The notes under the pieces: model-generated | Told to the model about the DNA's origin: nothing | Database searches by the model: none | What the model saw: the letters and a program-made list of their open reading frames with translations, nothing else | Source: Thermoleophilia bacterium | Lineage (GTDB): Bacteria > Actinomycetota > Thermoleophilia > BMS3ABIN01 | Length of the DNA: 44,508 nt | NCBI GenBank assembly: GCA_014874265.1 | Contig: JACWAM010000099.1 | Location: 1-44,508, forward strand | Reading direction: 5' to 3' | Translations under genes and position numbers: made by a program | Shown: piece by piece, positions 39,082-44,126 of the stretch | Layout of the letters: each line of letters opens with the position of its first letter | How positions within the stretch are numbered: the first letter of the stretch is position 1

Positions 39082-42000
39082 ATGAAGAGCAGTTTCGGAA
39101 GTAATCGCAAGCTGCGGGTCCTGATGGTTATCGCTCCGCTGGCTTTGCTGATAATCCTGGCGGTAGCAACGCTGGGGCTTTCCAGCGGCGCCGCGTTGAC
39201 TCAATATCAGAATACGGCCGTACCGAGCAATTACGGCGTCAGCAACCAGATGCTTTATGTCGCCAACGGCACCGACAGCAATGTCAAGGTGATTGACGTG
39301 GGCAGCATGAGCGTCGTCGACACCGTTCCGGTGCCGGCCCAGCCGGACGGCCTGCAGGGCCTCGGCCTGAACTGGGAGGTCCACGGCGTCGTCCCGTCGG
39401 CCGACAGAAGCAGCCTCTATACAGTGGGCGCCCTCTCGGGCGGCTACTTAAATGGCAGCAATTGTGACGGCGGCTGCGGTTATCACATCTCCCAGATCAG
39501 CACCAAGACCAAAACGGAGATCAAGACCATCCCGCTGCCGACCGCCGCTTACGACCCGGTTGGCTACTGCGGCCTGGAATACAACCTCAACAACATCAAC
39601 TCGAACTACCTGATCGCGGCGACTATGAACACCACAGACGCCAATCTGACGAACCTATTTGGCGCCCCCAATCTGAATCGCCAGCCACAGCAGATGTTAG
39701 GCGGCTGGGCCAGCGTCAACCTGACCACCGACACCAGCACGTTCCTGAGCACCGATCAGAACGGAGACGGGGAGTCAGGCACCTGCGGTATCGCCTGGAA
39801 CGCCGCCGGCACGAAGGGCTACGCCTCGCAGATGTTCTCGCCGTTCATCGCCACGATCAACTGGGATGCGGCCACGGCCACCGGCACACTCACGGGCTCG
39901 GCCATCGACGCTCCGGCGAACAGCCCCTCGTACCATCAGGAAACGACGGATCCGTCCACCAATACCCTGTATGCGGCCAACGAGCGGTACATTGACGTCA
40001 TCAACATGAACACCGATACGCGGCTCGCCACCATCGACATGTACACGCTGCTTGGCGCCACCAACGCGGTGCATACTCACTCGGTGGACTTCACCCAGGC
40101 GGGCGGCCACAAGGTACTGTACGCGACGGTGCGGAATTATCCCAATAACAGCCAGGCGACCATCGTTGCGCTCGACGTCAGCAACATAAACAGCCCGGCA
40201 GTGATTGGCGAGACCCAGGGTCTCAACGTGGAAGCCTGCGGCGTCTACGCCGATCCCGACAAGAGCCTGTACTACAAGGCTTCGGGCATCATCAGCACGG
40301 CTCAGGCTGCCAACGATAACGTCACCGGCATAACGCTTAACGCCGGTGGCACCGGTTTCACTGCGGCGCCGACGGTGACGATCAGTGGCGGCGGCGGCGG
40401 CGGCGCCAGCGCGTCAGCCAGCGTTTATAACGGCACTGTCAACGCGATCAACCTGCTCTCCGGCGGCGGCGGCTACACTTCGGCGCCGACGGTGACGATC
40501 AGTGGCGGCGGCGGCAGCGGCGCGACGGCGACGGCTTCGATTGGCCCGGTTGCCCCGTTTAACCATAATGCCCTCGCCAATGACCTGCTGTTCGTGGCCG
40601 GTGGCCGCGACAGCAACGTCAAGGTCGTGGACCCGAGTTCGATGAGCATCGTTGACAGGATTCCGGTGCCGGACGAAGTTACACCTGGTACGCCCGGCAA
40701 CCCGACCACCTGCGCCAACGTGCCCAACATGGGCTGCGTCAATCTGTACAGCCTCAATCCGTCGCTGATGGATTGGGAGATCCACGGCGTTGTCGTTTCA
40801 CCCGACCGCACCAAGATCTATGCGCAGGGAGCGCTCTCCGGCGGCAGCTACGCGACGCCGGGCGACCTGAACAGCGCGTTCAACACCACCGATTACAAGA
40901 TGTACACGATCGGCACGGCGAACAAGACGCTCCAGCGCGCAGATTCCTTGCACGGAGCCAATGATCCGGTTGATCCGGTGGGCTTCTGCGGCATGGAATA
41001 CGATCTGAACAATGAAAACGCTAACTACATCGTCTCGACATCGATGAACGCCAGCAACGCCACGCTCAAAGGCGCGCTGGGCGGCGCCGATCTCTCGACC
41101 GCGCGCGGCAGCGGCTTCAGCGAGCACGGCGGCTGGTACATCTTCAACCTGTCGACGCATCAGAACGTCAGCTTCATCGACACGTACAATTCGGCGGCGG
41201 GCGAGGTCAACAATGAGTCCTCCACCTGCGGCATTGCCTGGGATGCAAGCGGCACGCACGCTTACGCATCGCAAATGTTCCAGCCGTTTATCGACACCCT
41301 GAACTGGACCGCTGAGGCCGGTAGTAATCCTCCCAGTGGTACTGTGACCGGCGGTCTGACGCTGACGAAAGAAGCAAGTGGCGGCATGCACCAGGAATCA
41401 TCGGATAAAACGAATGGAATCCTGTATGTGAGCGATGATAGCGGTTATTTGGATGCCTATAGCATGTCCACCAACGCCACCATTGGCCAGATCAACATTC
41501 GCGGCCTCACTGGTTCGCCAAATGTTATGGTCCACAGCGTTGAGGTGTCTCCGAGCGACCCGAGTGTCATCTACGTGCAGGGGCATGACTTGCCGGAAAA
41601 TCCGGCAGGTACGGTTGATCCGGACAAGGGCGCCACAGAGGGCGGCGTTGCTGTCATCAAGATCGACGACGTGAATAATCCGGGCAGCTCGGCGCACGTG
41701 CTGGGAATCATCCCGAATATGGGATATAACTCCTGCGGCGTGTATGCGATCGGCGACAAGGCGGACTGGCAGAACGCCCAGAACGCGGTCAAGCCGGCGC
41801 TGTCGCTGACAAAGGGCAACGTGTACTGGGCTTCATACAGCGACTACACGAACCACCAGCTGTCGGTTGACTACACGGTCAACGCGGCGGCGACAAGCTC
41901 GGCGGCGAGCGGCGTGCAGGTAACCGGCGCCACCTTCGACCGGGCCGGCGTGTCCCTGGCAACCCCGATGCCGCTTTCGCTTGGCGATTTTGGCGCCGGC

Positions 42001-42108
42001 GGCAGCGCCTCGTTCACGCTCAAGTACGACGTTTCCGGCCTGGCCGGTAACATGTTCGTGACCACCACCGATGCATCTGCCGATGGCGGCGCGTGGACCT
42101 ATCCCTAA
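39082..42108 (+). CDS. Secreted protein with two homologous beta-propeller halves
   Basis: A 1008-residue protein with an N-terminal signal or anchor (RVLMVIAPLALLIILAVATL). Residues ~55-400 and ~500-895 are homologous halves of propeller type (YVTN-like strands). They share a set of conserved residues: WEVHG/WEIHG (His101, His568), GYCGLEY/GFCGMEY (Cys163, Cys636), TCGIAW (Cys235, Cys716), HQE (His285, His770), HSV (His333, His818) and ACGVYA/SCGVYA (Cys386, Cys885). Three His and three Cys kept in each half suggest metal binding or disulfides. The halves are joined by a Gly-rich repeat (APTVTISGGGG, twice); the last ~100 residues look like an Ig-type domain. The ribosome site is very strong. 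A tiny peptide gene follows 62 bases later. Confidence 0.8.
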   Translation: MKSSFGSNRKLRVLMVIAPLALLIILAVATLGLSSGAALTQYQNTAVPSNYGVSNQMLYVANGTDSNVKVIDVGSMSVVDTVPVPAQPDGLQGLGLNWEVHGVVPSADRSSLYTVGALSGGYLNGSNCDGGCGYHISQISTKTKTEIKTIPLPTAAYDPVGYCGLEYNLNNINSNYLIAATMNTTDANLTNLFGAPNLNRQPQQMLGGWASVNLTTDTSTFLSTDQNGDGESGTCGIAWNAAGTKGYASQMFSPFIATINWDAATATGTLTGSAIDAPANSPSYHQETTDPSTNTLYAANERYIDVINMNTDTRLATIDMYTLLGATNAVHTHSVDFTQAGGHKVLYATVRNYPNNSQATIVALDVSNINSPAVIGETQGLNVEACGVYADPDKSLYYKASGIISTAQAANDNVTGITLNAGGTGFTAAPTVTISGGGGGGASASASVYNGTVNAINLLSGGGGYTSAPTVTISGGGGSGATATASIGPVAPFNHNALANDLLFVAGGRDSNVKVVDPSSMSIVDRIPVPDEVTPGTPGNPTTCANVPNMGCVNLYSLNPSLMDWEIHGVVVSPDRTKIYAQGALSGGSYATPGDLNSAFNTTDYKMYTIGTANKTLQRADSLHGANDPVDPVGFCGMEYDLNNENANYIVSTSMNASNATLKGALGGADLSTARGSGFSEHGGWYIFNLSTHQNVSFIDTYNSAAGEVNNESSTCGIAWDASGTHAYASQMFQPFIDTLNWTAEAGSNPPSGTVTGGLTLTKEASGGMHQESSDKTNGILYVSDDSGYLDAYSMSTNATIGQINIRGLTGSPNVMVHSVEVSPSDPSVIYVQGHDLPENPAGTVDPDKGATEGGVAVIKIDDVNNPGSSAHVLGIIPNMGYNSCGVYAIGDKADWQNAQNAVKPALSLTKGNVYWASYSDYTNHQLSVDYTVNAAATSSAASGVQVTGATFDRAGVSLATPMPLSLGDFGAGGSASFTLKYDVSGLAGNMFVTTTDASADGGAWTYP

Positions 42109-42170
42109 ATGAGCGGGACTAAGGAAAACGGAGAACGCCATTGATCAAGCTAAGTAAAAAGGAGAACGTT

Positions 42171-42296
42171 ATGGCTAAGAAAAGCCAGCGGGAGCCTTAC
42201 GCTAAGCCTGAGCTGGTGAAGCACGAGAACCTGAAGGAAATCACCTTCGAGTGCTCGGGCTGGCAGTGCAGCGTAGTGGTTCCGCCAGCGCCGTAA
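42171..42296 (+). CDS. RiPP precursor-like peptide with lasso-type leader and CX4C core
   Basis: A 41-residue peptide gene, too short for most ORF cut-offs. AAAAAGGAG lies six bases before the ATG, so it is probably well translated. Residues 10-15 (YAKPEL) match the YxxPxL leader motif bound by the RRE (B1) proteins of lasso systems, and LKEIT at 21-25 ends in the Thr that usually sits second before the cleavage site. The tail from about residue 27 holds CSGWQC (Cys28, Cys33), Ser29 and Ser34, and ends VVVPPAP. A lasso core needs Asp or Glu at position 7-9 of the ring; none is present. A hairpin follows 37 bases after the stop. An HPr-kinase-like gene lies downstream. Confidence 0.75.
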   Translation: MAKKSQREPYAKPELVKHENLKEITFECSGWQCSVVVPPAP

Positions 42297-42332
42297 AACG
42301 GCGAAGAGCAAGCAGGACGAAAGCAACGAAAC

Positions 42333-42370
42333 GGGAGGGCCGGCCTCGCGGGCCTGCCCTCCCGAAATTT
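42333..42370 (+). terminator. Strong hairpin after the precursor gene
   Basis: GGGAGGGC (42333-42340) pairs with GCCCTCCC (42356-42363), with further pairing of the inner GGCC segments; GAAATTT follows. It would end or attenuate the propeller-precursor transcript and protect its 3' end, favouring high precursor levels. The short T-run makes termination likely but perhaps partial. Confidence 0.65.
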
Positions 42371-42404
42371 AACGGTTTGCCGGGCAAGTTTGGCGGAATT
42401 GCGG

Positions 42405-42410
42405 TATAAT
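42405..42410 (+). promoter_or_regulatory. -10 box of the lipoprotein gene
   Basis: TATAAT about 44 bases before the ATG at 42454, after the hairpin. No good -35 was found at the usual distance. It suggests that the lipoprotein and kinase genes have their own promoter. Confidence 0.45.
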
Positions 42411-42453
42411 TAAAGACTGCTTTTTCGCAACCAGAATAAGGAGAACTTATCGC

Positions 42454-43047
42454 ATGAAAGCTGTAGCAGGCCAGAACCGGAACGGGAAATGGAGAGGTTC
42501 ACAGGGAATGATGGCGGTTGTCGCGATGGCGCTGCTTGCCTTCACCATCATTGTCGCGGGATGCGGCGGGGGGTCTGGAAATAGCACCACAGCCTCACAG
42601 CTTAATAGAAAGTCAACCGGCACAACAGGGAAAACGGTAGCCTCAAAAAACAAGACTGGCACGACTGCGACTGTTCCCGGAGTTAATGGGAACCAGCAGG
42701 TGCTGGCCGGATATACCGCGGACCAGTGCATGTCCGACTTGACGACGCGGTACGGAAGCAGTGATGTTGCCGCTCAGGCATGCGCACAGATCAACAAGGA
42801 TTACGGAAGCTCTGTGCCCCGAAGCCAGCTGACCACCACTGTTTTGCCTAAAATCGAGCAGCAGCATCCGAACTGGAAACCGGTGCAGCCGGGAACTCCG
42901 TCGCAGTCGCCGTCGCCCTCACCGTCTCAACCGCCGTCTGGCGGGCAGACGCCGTCGGGAGGATCGGGCGGTACGAGCACGGGCGGCTGGTCCGGTGGCG
43001 GAATTCCGATCACGGTGCCGGGGCAGCCCGGTGGCAACGGCCCCTAA
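42454..43047 (+). CDS. Lipoprotein of unknown function
   Basis: A 197-residue protein with a lipoprotein signal (MAVVAMALLAFTIIVAGC, lipobox VAGC). After a Ser/Thr/Lys linker is a small domain of ~60 residues (YTADQCMSDLTTRYGSSDVAAQACAQINKDYGSS) with two Cys, and then a Pro/Ser/Gly-rich tail like a cell-wall spacer. No family was recognised. It lies between the precursor-like gene and the kinase, so it may be part of the same system, for example in binding or sensing the product. Confidence 0.7.
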   Translation: MKAVAGQNRNGKWRGSQGMMAVVAMALLAFTIIVAGCGGGSGNSTTASQLNRKSTGTTGKTVASKNKTGTTATVPGVNGNQQVLAGYTADQCMSDLTTRYGSSDVAAQACAQINKDYGSSVPRSQLTTTVLPKIEQQHPNWKPVQPGTPSQSPSPSPSQPPSGGQTPSGGSGGTSTGGWSGGGIPITVPGQPGGNGP

Positions 43048-43100
43048 GGCCTGACGGCCGGCGCGGCACAGCAATAATGACGGGTCATAAGGGGAAGGAA

Positions 43101-44126
43101 ATGCTTGACAGTCTAAGTGAGATCATGGGTCAAAGGTTCAGCGACGCCAAACCAAATGCGGCCACGTATGACGTGCACGGCGTCGTGACAAAAGTCTACG
43201 CGGATGACCATCTGCTGGCGCTGGCGATCCAGGATTTCCTGAGACCATTCCGCGGCCTGCCGGGCGCAGAGCCGGACATCGAGTTCTACCTCCTGACCAG
43301 GCCGGATGGCAACAGGGATGCCGGCGGCAGCTTCCGGGCAGCGGAGCTCCTGTATGACTGGAAGGTCCTCCGCTACAGCCGGGAAGGCCAGCTGCGGTAT
43401 CAGGAAGTGCCCGGCGCCGGCTCGGTCTCGGCGGATCTCGATGCCGGACTTGCGGTCGCCTTTGTGGATAGCGGCATGTCGGCGCGGGCCTGGTCCGTAG
43501 CGCATGTGATCTTCTTTCCGATCTGGGCGCAGCTTCTGAAGGTAAAAGGCCTCTTCCCGGTACACGCGGCCGGCATGGAGCGGCAAGGGTGCGGCATTCT
43601 TTTCCCCGGGAGGAGCGGCAGCGGAAAGTCCACTCTGTCATTGCAGCTCTTGCGCCATGGCTTCCGGCTGCTGGGAGACGACACCGTCTTTGTCAAGGCA
43701 GATTCCCATGATGGTGCAGACATGCTCTTCTTTCCGGAGGAAGTTGATGTTTGCCCGGAGACGGTGGACCTGTTCCCCCAGCTGGCTTTGGCGCGGAATC
43801 TGGCTGAGGACCGCTGGCAGCCCAAGACCAGGGTGAATCTCGGCGATGTCAGATCAAGCCAGGTGATCGAAGCCGCTGGTATCAACCTGCTCGCATTCCC
43901 GGTTATCGCCCGCGACGGCCGCACGCGTTACGAACGGATCGGGCAGACGGAGGCCCTGGCGGAGCTGATTCTGTACGCCTTCCTGTTTATGGACCCGGAG
44001 ACCAGCAAGGAAAACTTTGGTCTGCTGGCGGGTCTGGTGCGCAGGGCAGGCTGCTTCCGGCTCCACATGGGCCTCGACGGCGACGAGCTTGCCAAGAACG
44101 TTGACGAATTGGTAGCTAGAGTATAA
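43101..44126 (+). CDS. HPr-kinase-like protein of the RiPP type
   Basis: A 341-residue P-loop protein (from the preferred start). The kinase core has VKGLFPVHAAGMERQG, Walker A GRSGSGKSTLSLQLL, then GFRLLGDDTVFV, the pattern of HprK-related kinases. It lacks the N-terminal HPr-binding domain typical of HprK. Such kinases occur next to lasso peptide genes (paeninodin) and phosphorylate a Ser in the precursor. Ser29 or Ser34 of the 42171-42296 peptide are possible targets; this is inference. The start at 43101 follows GGGG by six bases; an ATG eight codons earlier is weaker. Confidence 0.75.
   Translation: MLDSLSEIMGQRFSDAKPNAATYDVHGVVTKVYADDHLLALAIQDFLRPFRGLPGAEPDIEFYLLTRPDGNRDAGGSFRAAELLYDWKVLRYSREGQLRYQEVPGAGSVSADLDAGLAVAFVDSGMSARAWSVAHVIFFPIWAQLLKVKGLFPVHAAGMERQGCGILFPGRSGSGKSTLSLQLLRHGFRLLGDDTVFVKADSHDGADMLFFPEEVDVCPETVDLFPQLALARNLAEDRWQPKTRVNLGDVRSSQVIEAAGINLLAFPVIARDGRTRYERIGQTEALAELILYAFLFMDPETSKENFGLLAGLVRRAGCFRLHMGLDGDELAKNVDELVARV

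Follow-up and report, generated by a model that had tools for sequence, protein, structure and literature searches.

In an uncultured Thermoleophilia genome, a 41-codon open reading frame lies between genes for a large exported protein and a lipoprotein, with an HprK-like kinase gene close behind (Table 1), and the locus raises the question of whether this frame is a gene and what becomes of a product that pairs a lasso-type leader with a core unable to close the usual lasso ring. The window, meaning the whole 44,508-nt stretch of DNA analysed, spans the entire contig C89 of a 2.0-Mb genome in 126 contigs, and its right edge is therefore a contig end. The answer argued for here, to which a probability of roughly two in three is attached, is that this peptide belongs to a set of RiPP-type precursors handled by a phosphopeptide system that is RRE-guided and works without a cyclase; all of the evidence is sequence-based and comes from MAGs.

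Table 1. Features of the precursor locus, with positions counted in the window
Feature	Position	Strand	Basis
Exported beta-propeller-like protein, 1008 aa, YVTN-type repeats, just 5′ of the peptide	39082..42108	+	ORF, TIGR02276/TIGR03866 repeat matches, genus gene order
'CT domain', ~113 aa, Ig-like, C-terminal	41761..42105	+	52-member alignment, AlphaFold
Shine-Dalgarno AAGGAG	42159..42164	+	6 nt 5′ of ATG; read in sequence
Precursor peptide gene, 41 aa, MAKKSQREPYAKPELVKHENLKEITFECSGWQCSVVVPPAP	42171..42296	+	Paralogues, orthologues, pN/pS
Leader YAKPELVKHENLKEIT, Y-17/P-14/L-12/T-2 (lasso numbering, F26 = -1)	42171..42248	+	Residue counts, weak lasso_leader_L3 matches
Predicted core ECSGWQCSVVVPPAP (E1 C2 S3 G4 W5 Q6 C7 S8), cleavage site inferred	42249..42293	+	Residue counts
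GC-rich hairpin, without U-run	42332..42364	+	Starts 35 nt past peptide stop; z -1.9
Lipoprotein, 197 aa, Pro/Gly-rich, conserved module member	42454..43047	+	Same place in 6/6 genus genomes, also L181, L182, L102
HprK-like kinase, 349 aa, H163-G178-G181-G183-K184-S185-D201-D202	43077..44126	+	Profile/PDB matches, AlphaFold, synteny
Second exported CT-domain gene, 5′ end, truncated by contig end	44297..44508	+	ORF; relatives have peptide 2 next

The initial annotation of this DNA had described the ORF with its Shine-Dalgarno sequence, YxxPxL motif, Thr at -2, CX4C and Pro-rich tail, together with the lipoprotein and HprK-like genes, all of which are present where it placed them; the hairpin is also there, at some distance from the stop codon rather than just after it. 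Conservation of the short gene in relatives, which had been set as a check on that proposal, is extensive. Five paralogues occur elsewhere in the same genome (E 9e-23 to 2e-13; six copies in total), copies are present in all six genomes of the genus, and in the GTDB family (uncultured Thermoleophilia, Actinobacteriota) every one of the 19 genomes sampled carries 4-12. Outside the family, a search of 380 further genomes from the class returned nothing but one borderline match (E 0.0065), and the named records that carry the peptide are uncultured sediment or subsurface MAGs labelled Actinobacteria, Thermoleophilia, Gaiellales or 'Bacterium BMS3Abin01'. The frame is thus confirmed as a genuine gene, far above chance expectation, and with pN/pS values of 0.24 for the leader and 0.34 for the core (59 sequences) both parts are, by this measure, under purifying selection.

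Residue counts over 97 distinct copies, some of them truncated at contig ends, define what is kept in each part. Leader residues Y-17, P-14 and T-2 are found in 88, 94 and 96 copies, and core residues W5, C7 and S8 in 89, 90 and 90, giving a W5-x-C7-S8 motif within a prevailing core of ECxxWxCSVxVPPP; C2 is kept in 79/97 (the first Cys being absent in 18), and S3 in only 30/97, yet in all six copies of the window's own genome. Asp or Glu at ring positions 7-9 occurs in two cores, and the earlier view of a RiPP-type precursor that could not form a lasso ring by the usual route is borne out by the other 95. Weaker paralogues combine the same leader and W-x-C-S with different tails, for example FNHSSWTCSIGFDDDDDHGHDD, FHHSEWTCSLIGGHQGHGHERDDD and CNFPGWQCSYGGGEREDEHDGGHGGG; a constant leader joined to varied cores is usual for RiPP precursors. 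Several of these (L165-L175, L177) have His/Asp/Gly-rich tails of metal-binding appearance and mostly do not lie 3′ of CT-domain genes.

The kinase encoded downstream matches Pfam Hpr_kinase_C above cutoff (E 3e-9) and HprK in the PDB (E 1.9e-6), and its AlphaFold model has the PEPCK/HprK fold, whereas its full-length match to TIGR00679, the bifunctional HPr kinase/phosphorylase (HprK/P), reaches 38 bits against a cutoff of 240. The eight-residue H-G-G-G-K-S-D-D motif reported for the lasso-precursor kinase BsfK (PMC10368454) is complete in the window kinase at identical spacing and is invariant in 12 homologues. In 6/6 genomes of the genus the locus order is exported CT-domain protein, peptide, lipoprotein, HprK-like kinase and second exported CT-domain protein, and an HprK gene also adjoins the peptide in G022, G043, G066 and G054 and in the named loci L096 and L107 (counted separately from the G-numbered genomes by distinct record names alone), making at least 12 genomes overall. 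The proposed link between an HprK-like kinase and a RiPP-type precursor is thereby strengthened by both profile match and synteny. It had further been suggested that the maturation enzymes lie beyond the right edge; this was rejected, since in syntenic genus loci the second exported CT-domain gene is followed by a second peptide (or the contig end) and then housekeeping genes, and RRE and B2 genes are found in trans. A methanobactin-like oxazolone/thioamide copper peptide, raised earlier as an alternative on account of the two X-Cys pairs of the prevailing core, can be given next to no probability, as in the syntenic flanks no gene resembling MbnB/MbnC was noted, C2 is not universal, and the leader is of the type found in lasso peptides and linear polyphosphorylated peptides (LPPs).

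The second peptide expected at the window locus was located elsewhere in the same assembly (G000 C100, ~61.4-61.9 kb; L016), with a truncated 93-aa CT-domain ORF and beside an rpoN-like gene, a placing that suggests either a rearrangement or an assembly break. A tandem pair of radical SAM genes, 8 kb away from the C100 copy, was considered for the maturase role and rejected; the pair is surrounded by tetrapyrrole genes.

The machinery that acts on the peptides in trans is likely to be an HprK-RRE(PqqD)-B2 operon, judging from motif fit, co-occurrence and shared CT-domain neighbours, the RRE and B2 genes not being located beside the peptides. In the window's own genome, an HprK paralogue on C3 adjoins a PqqD-like RRE (61.8 against a cutoff of 80 for NCBIfam lasso_PqqD, and so below it), with a B2 protease that scores above its NCBIfam cutoff 20 kb away; G005 resembles this genome (G000) in that B2 is not immediately beside PqqD. 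Other family genomes have HprK, PqqD and B2 adjacent in glycosyltransferase-rich regions, often with a CT-domain protein close by. In 17/19 family genomes the RRE scores above 165 bits; the two that lack it are 78% and 69% complete, and no genome from the remainder of the class exceeds 64 bits. It aligns with TbiB1, PbaB1, FusB1 and LppB, the pairwise match to LppB (E 6e-4) being weaker than that to TbiB1 (2e-10), and its N37 and D74, invariant in six genomes, align to LppB N33/D70, an Asn/Asp pair linked to the Tyr selectivity of RREs (PMC13381572). In most family operons B2 is followed by a DUF2079 membrane protein (L214:9694-11619, L028:10143-12242), possibly a GT-C-type enzyme. No dedicated exporter for the peptides was found.

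No lasso macrolactam cyclase is encoded among the genes of the inspected HprK-PqqD-B2 operon loci, and the Asn-synthase matches of the window's own genome are EPS-type or weak. One of these proteins (G000 C58:9356-11230; L030) is asparagine-synthetase-like and starts MSGIAGI, its catalytic Cys2 being replaced by Ser. The presence of B1-like and B2-like genes, and a score of 268 bits for this protein against the lasso cyclase model NF033535 (cutoff 525), would suit a lasso peptide closed by such an unlinked cyclase; however, besides the missing acceptor in nearly all cores, no cyclase stands next to any inspected RRE/B2 operon, and the C58 protein fits the EPS-type model TIGR03108 better (456 bits) and sits in a polysaccharide cluster. 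The C58 Asn synthases were rejected as likely cyclases, and lasso closure is considered very improbable.

Several family genomes also contain a second RiPP-like system (L226:4353-8264, L228:2731-9268, L230:5679-8620, L225, L227, L229, L231), composed of a divergent HprK, PqqD, radical SAM/SPASM, a signal-peptidase-like protein, a CT-domain protein and precursors of its own (YxEPxIERVPLxxEEAVLxNCKCVxPQ..SGPPxGWCSGxFxxSCSTVGS; also PLAYACN types). Modification of the present peptide by this radical SAM/SPASM system, leading to Cys or Trp crosslinks, is improbable. The core does contain Cys and Trp, the system adjoins CT-domain proteins in several family genomes, and in G002 and G003 it has a copy of the peptide at a distance of 8-16 kb, but the precursors encoded within these clusters are of other kinds (NCKC...SGPPxGWCSG or PLAYACN types) and divergent PqqD matches appear in only some family genomes.

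The CT domain is common to exported proteins that are unrelated apart from it (propeller, rhodanese, NosD/beta-helix) and has no Pfam family of its own. Its AlphaFold model is Ig-like (pLDDT 91), and a fold search against the PDB gave no confident match, the best being a TRAP complex subunit (E 0.0096). Family genomes encode 11-39 such domains (17 in the window's own genome). Counting only copies preceded by 600 nt or more of sequence and including some low-scoring partial CT matches, 53 of 71 peptide copies (75%) are directly 3′ of an ORF ending in a CT domain, against a chance expectation of ~1% (17 domains per ~1,900 genes, the latter figure being our own estimate). Among copies located elsewhere, four loci (L010, L047, L050, L053) have upstream a LOG-like gene, which we take to be of TIGR00725 type, and the L013 copy neighbours cytochrome b.

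This arrangement would also be expected of an unmodified small cytoplasmic protein serving the exported CT-domain proteins, such as a CX4C metal/redox element or a chaperone-like partner, in which the lasso-like leader is a docking motif only. The core here is more conserved than that of most RiPPs, which counts against the RiPP-type phosphopeptide reading, and its pN/pS agrees with a conserved protein. The peptide also matches the Ogr/Delta zinc finger weakly, although that identity was rejected at E 0.03, below cutoff. An unmodified protein is nevertheless considered unlikely in view of the Y-17/P-14/T-2 leader at exact lasso spacing, the kinase synteny, the co-occurrence of a Tyr-type RRE, paralogues that pair the same leader with different cores, and the lack of the first Cys in 18 of the 97 copies.

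Under the favoured phosphopeptide reading, the RRE would bind the YxxP leader and present the precursor to the HprK-like kinases and B2; the kinases would phosphorylate a Ser of the core, with the near-invariant Ser8 as the likeliest target and Ser3 as a possible one; and the B2 Cys peptidase would cleave near T-2/F-1 to leave a linear peptide of ~15 residues. Ser8 as phosphosite is a guess, made because it is the best-conserved candidate (90/97, whereas Ser3 is found in 30/97). The scattered precursors probably use one common machinery in trans. In the most specific and least certain step, each copy may serve the exported CT-domain protein encoded just 5′ of it. The partnership of peptide and CT domain is, on gene order, a genetic association. 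It is only tentatively proposed that, once matured, the phosphopeptide acts as a dedicated partner to these proteins, whether as ligand, anchor or covalently attached tag; if so, the system would decorate envelope proteins, every exported protein being encoded together with a modified peptide of its own that hardly varies from copy to copy. With three-quarters of copies directly behind genes for CT-domain exported proteins, the role of phosphorylated RiPPs becomes testable with specific partners. A literature search on Thermoleophilia RiPPs returned nothing relevant, and the system would extend cyclase-free, HprK-phosphorylated RiPPs from Bacillota to Actinobacteriota, where the leader peptidase is a different one.

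Several known systems share part of this organization. Prochlorosins likewise have many scattered precursors with enzymes in common, their chemistry and leader being unrelated. SynChlorMet (ScmC/ScmD/ScmE/F) cassettes also encode HprK-like and PqqD-like proteins (weak TIGR04249 and TIGR04248 matches here, with scores far under cutoffs), but the HprK-PqqD-B2 operon lacks their radical SAM enzyme. Lasso features found are the YxxPx[L/V/I] and Thr-2 leader and the B1 (RRE) and B2 genes; with phosphorylated lasso peptides (paeninodin; Bsf, PMC10368454) the system shares the Y-17/P-14/L-12/position -2 numbering, split B1 and B2, a kinase with the same motif spacing and an NTP transferase, and it differs from them in having no macrolactam cyclase beside the operon and almost no acidic ring acceptor.

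The closest resemblance is to the LPPs of the P. alginolyticus lpp cluster, which are reported in Bacillota only (PMC13381572). These are cyclase-free, with a signal-peptidase-like LppS, an MsbA-like exporter, 1-3 clustered precursors, variable cores and a phosphorylated Ser3 (PMC13381572), the residue modified in both BsfA and LppA. Shared with them are the YxxP leader at equal Tyr-to-Thr distance (LPP YxxPxVLxHQxIxFET, here YxKPxLVKHxNLKxIT), a discrete RRE with the Asn/Asp pair, an HprK-like kinase, the lack of a cyclase, NTP_transf_5 in some genomes and a polysaccharide-locus setting. The initial annotation's suggestion of a RiPP class not fitting known rules was sound as to the unavailable lasso ring and too strong as to novelty, given that LPPs were already a comparable exception to the cyclase rule (PMC13381572). 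Unlike LPPs, the present system has a B2 Cys peptidase in place of LppS and DUF2079 after B2, and its operon encodes no MsbA-like exporter; its precursors are scattered, as many as 12 to a genome, with a conserved core that has Ser3 in under a third of copies, and the peptides are coupled to CT-domain proteins. Because it departs from LPPs in leader peptidase and exporter, and from lasso peptides in ring and cyclase, the system is LPP-like rather than a member of the LPPs.
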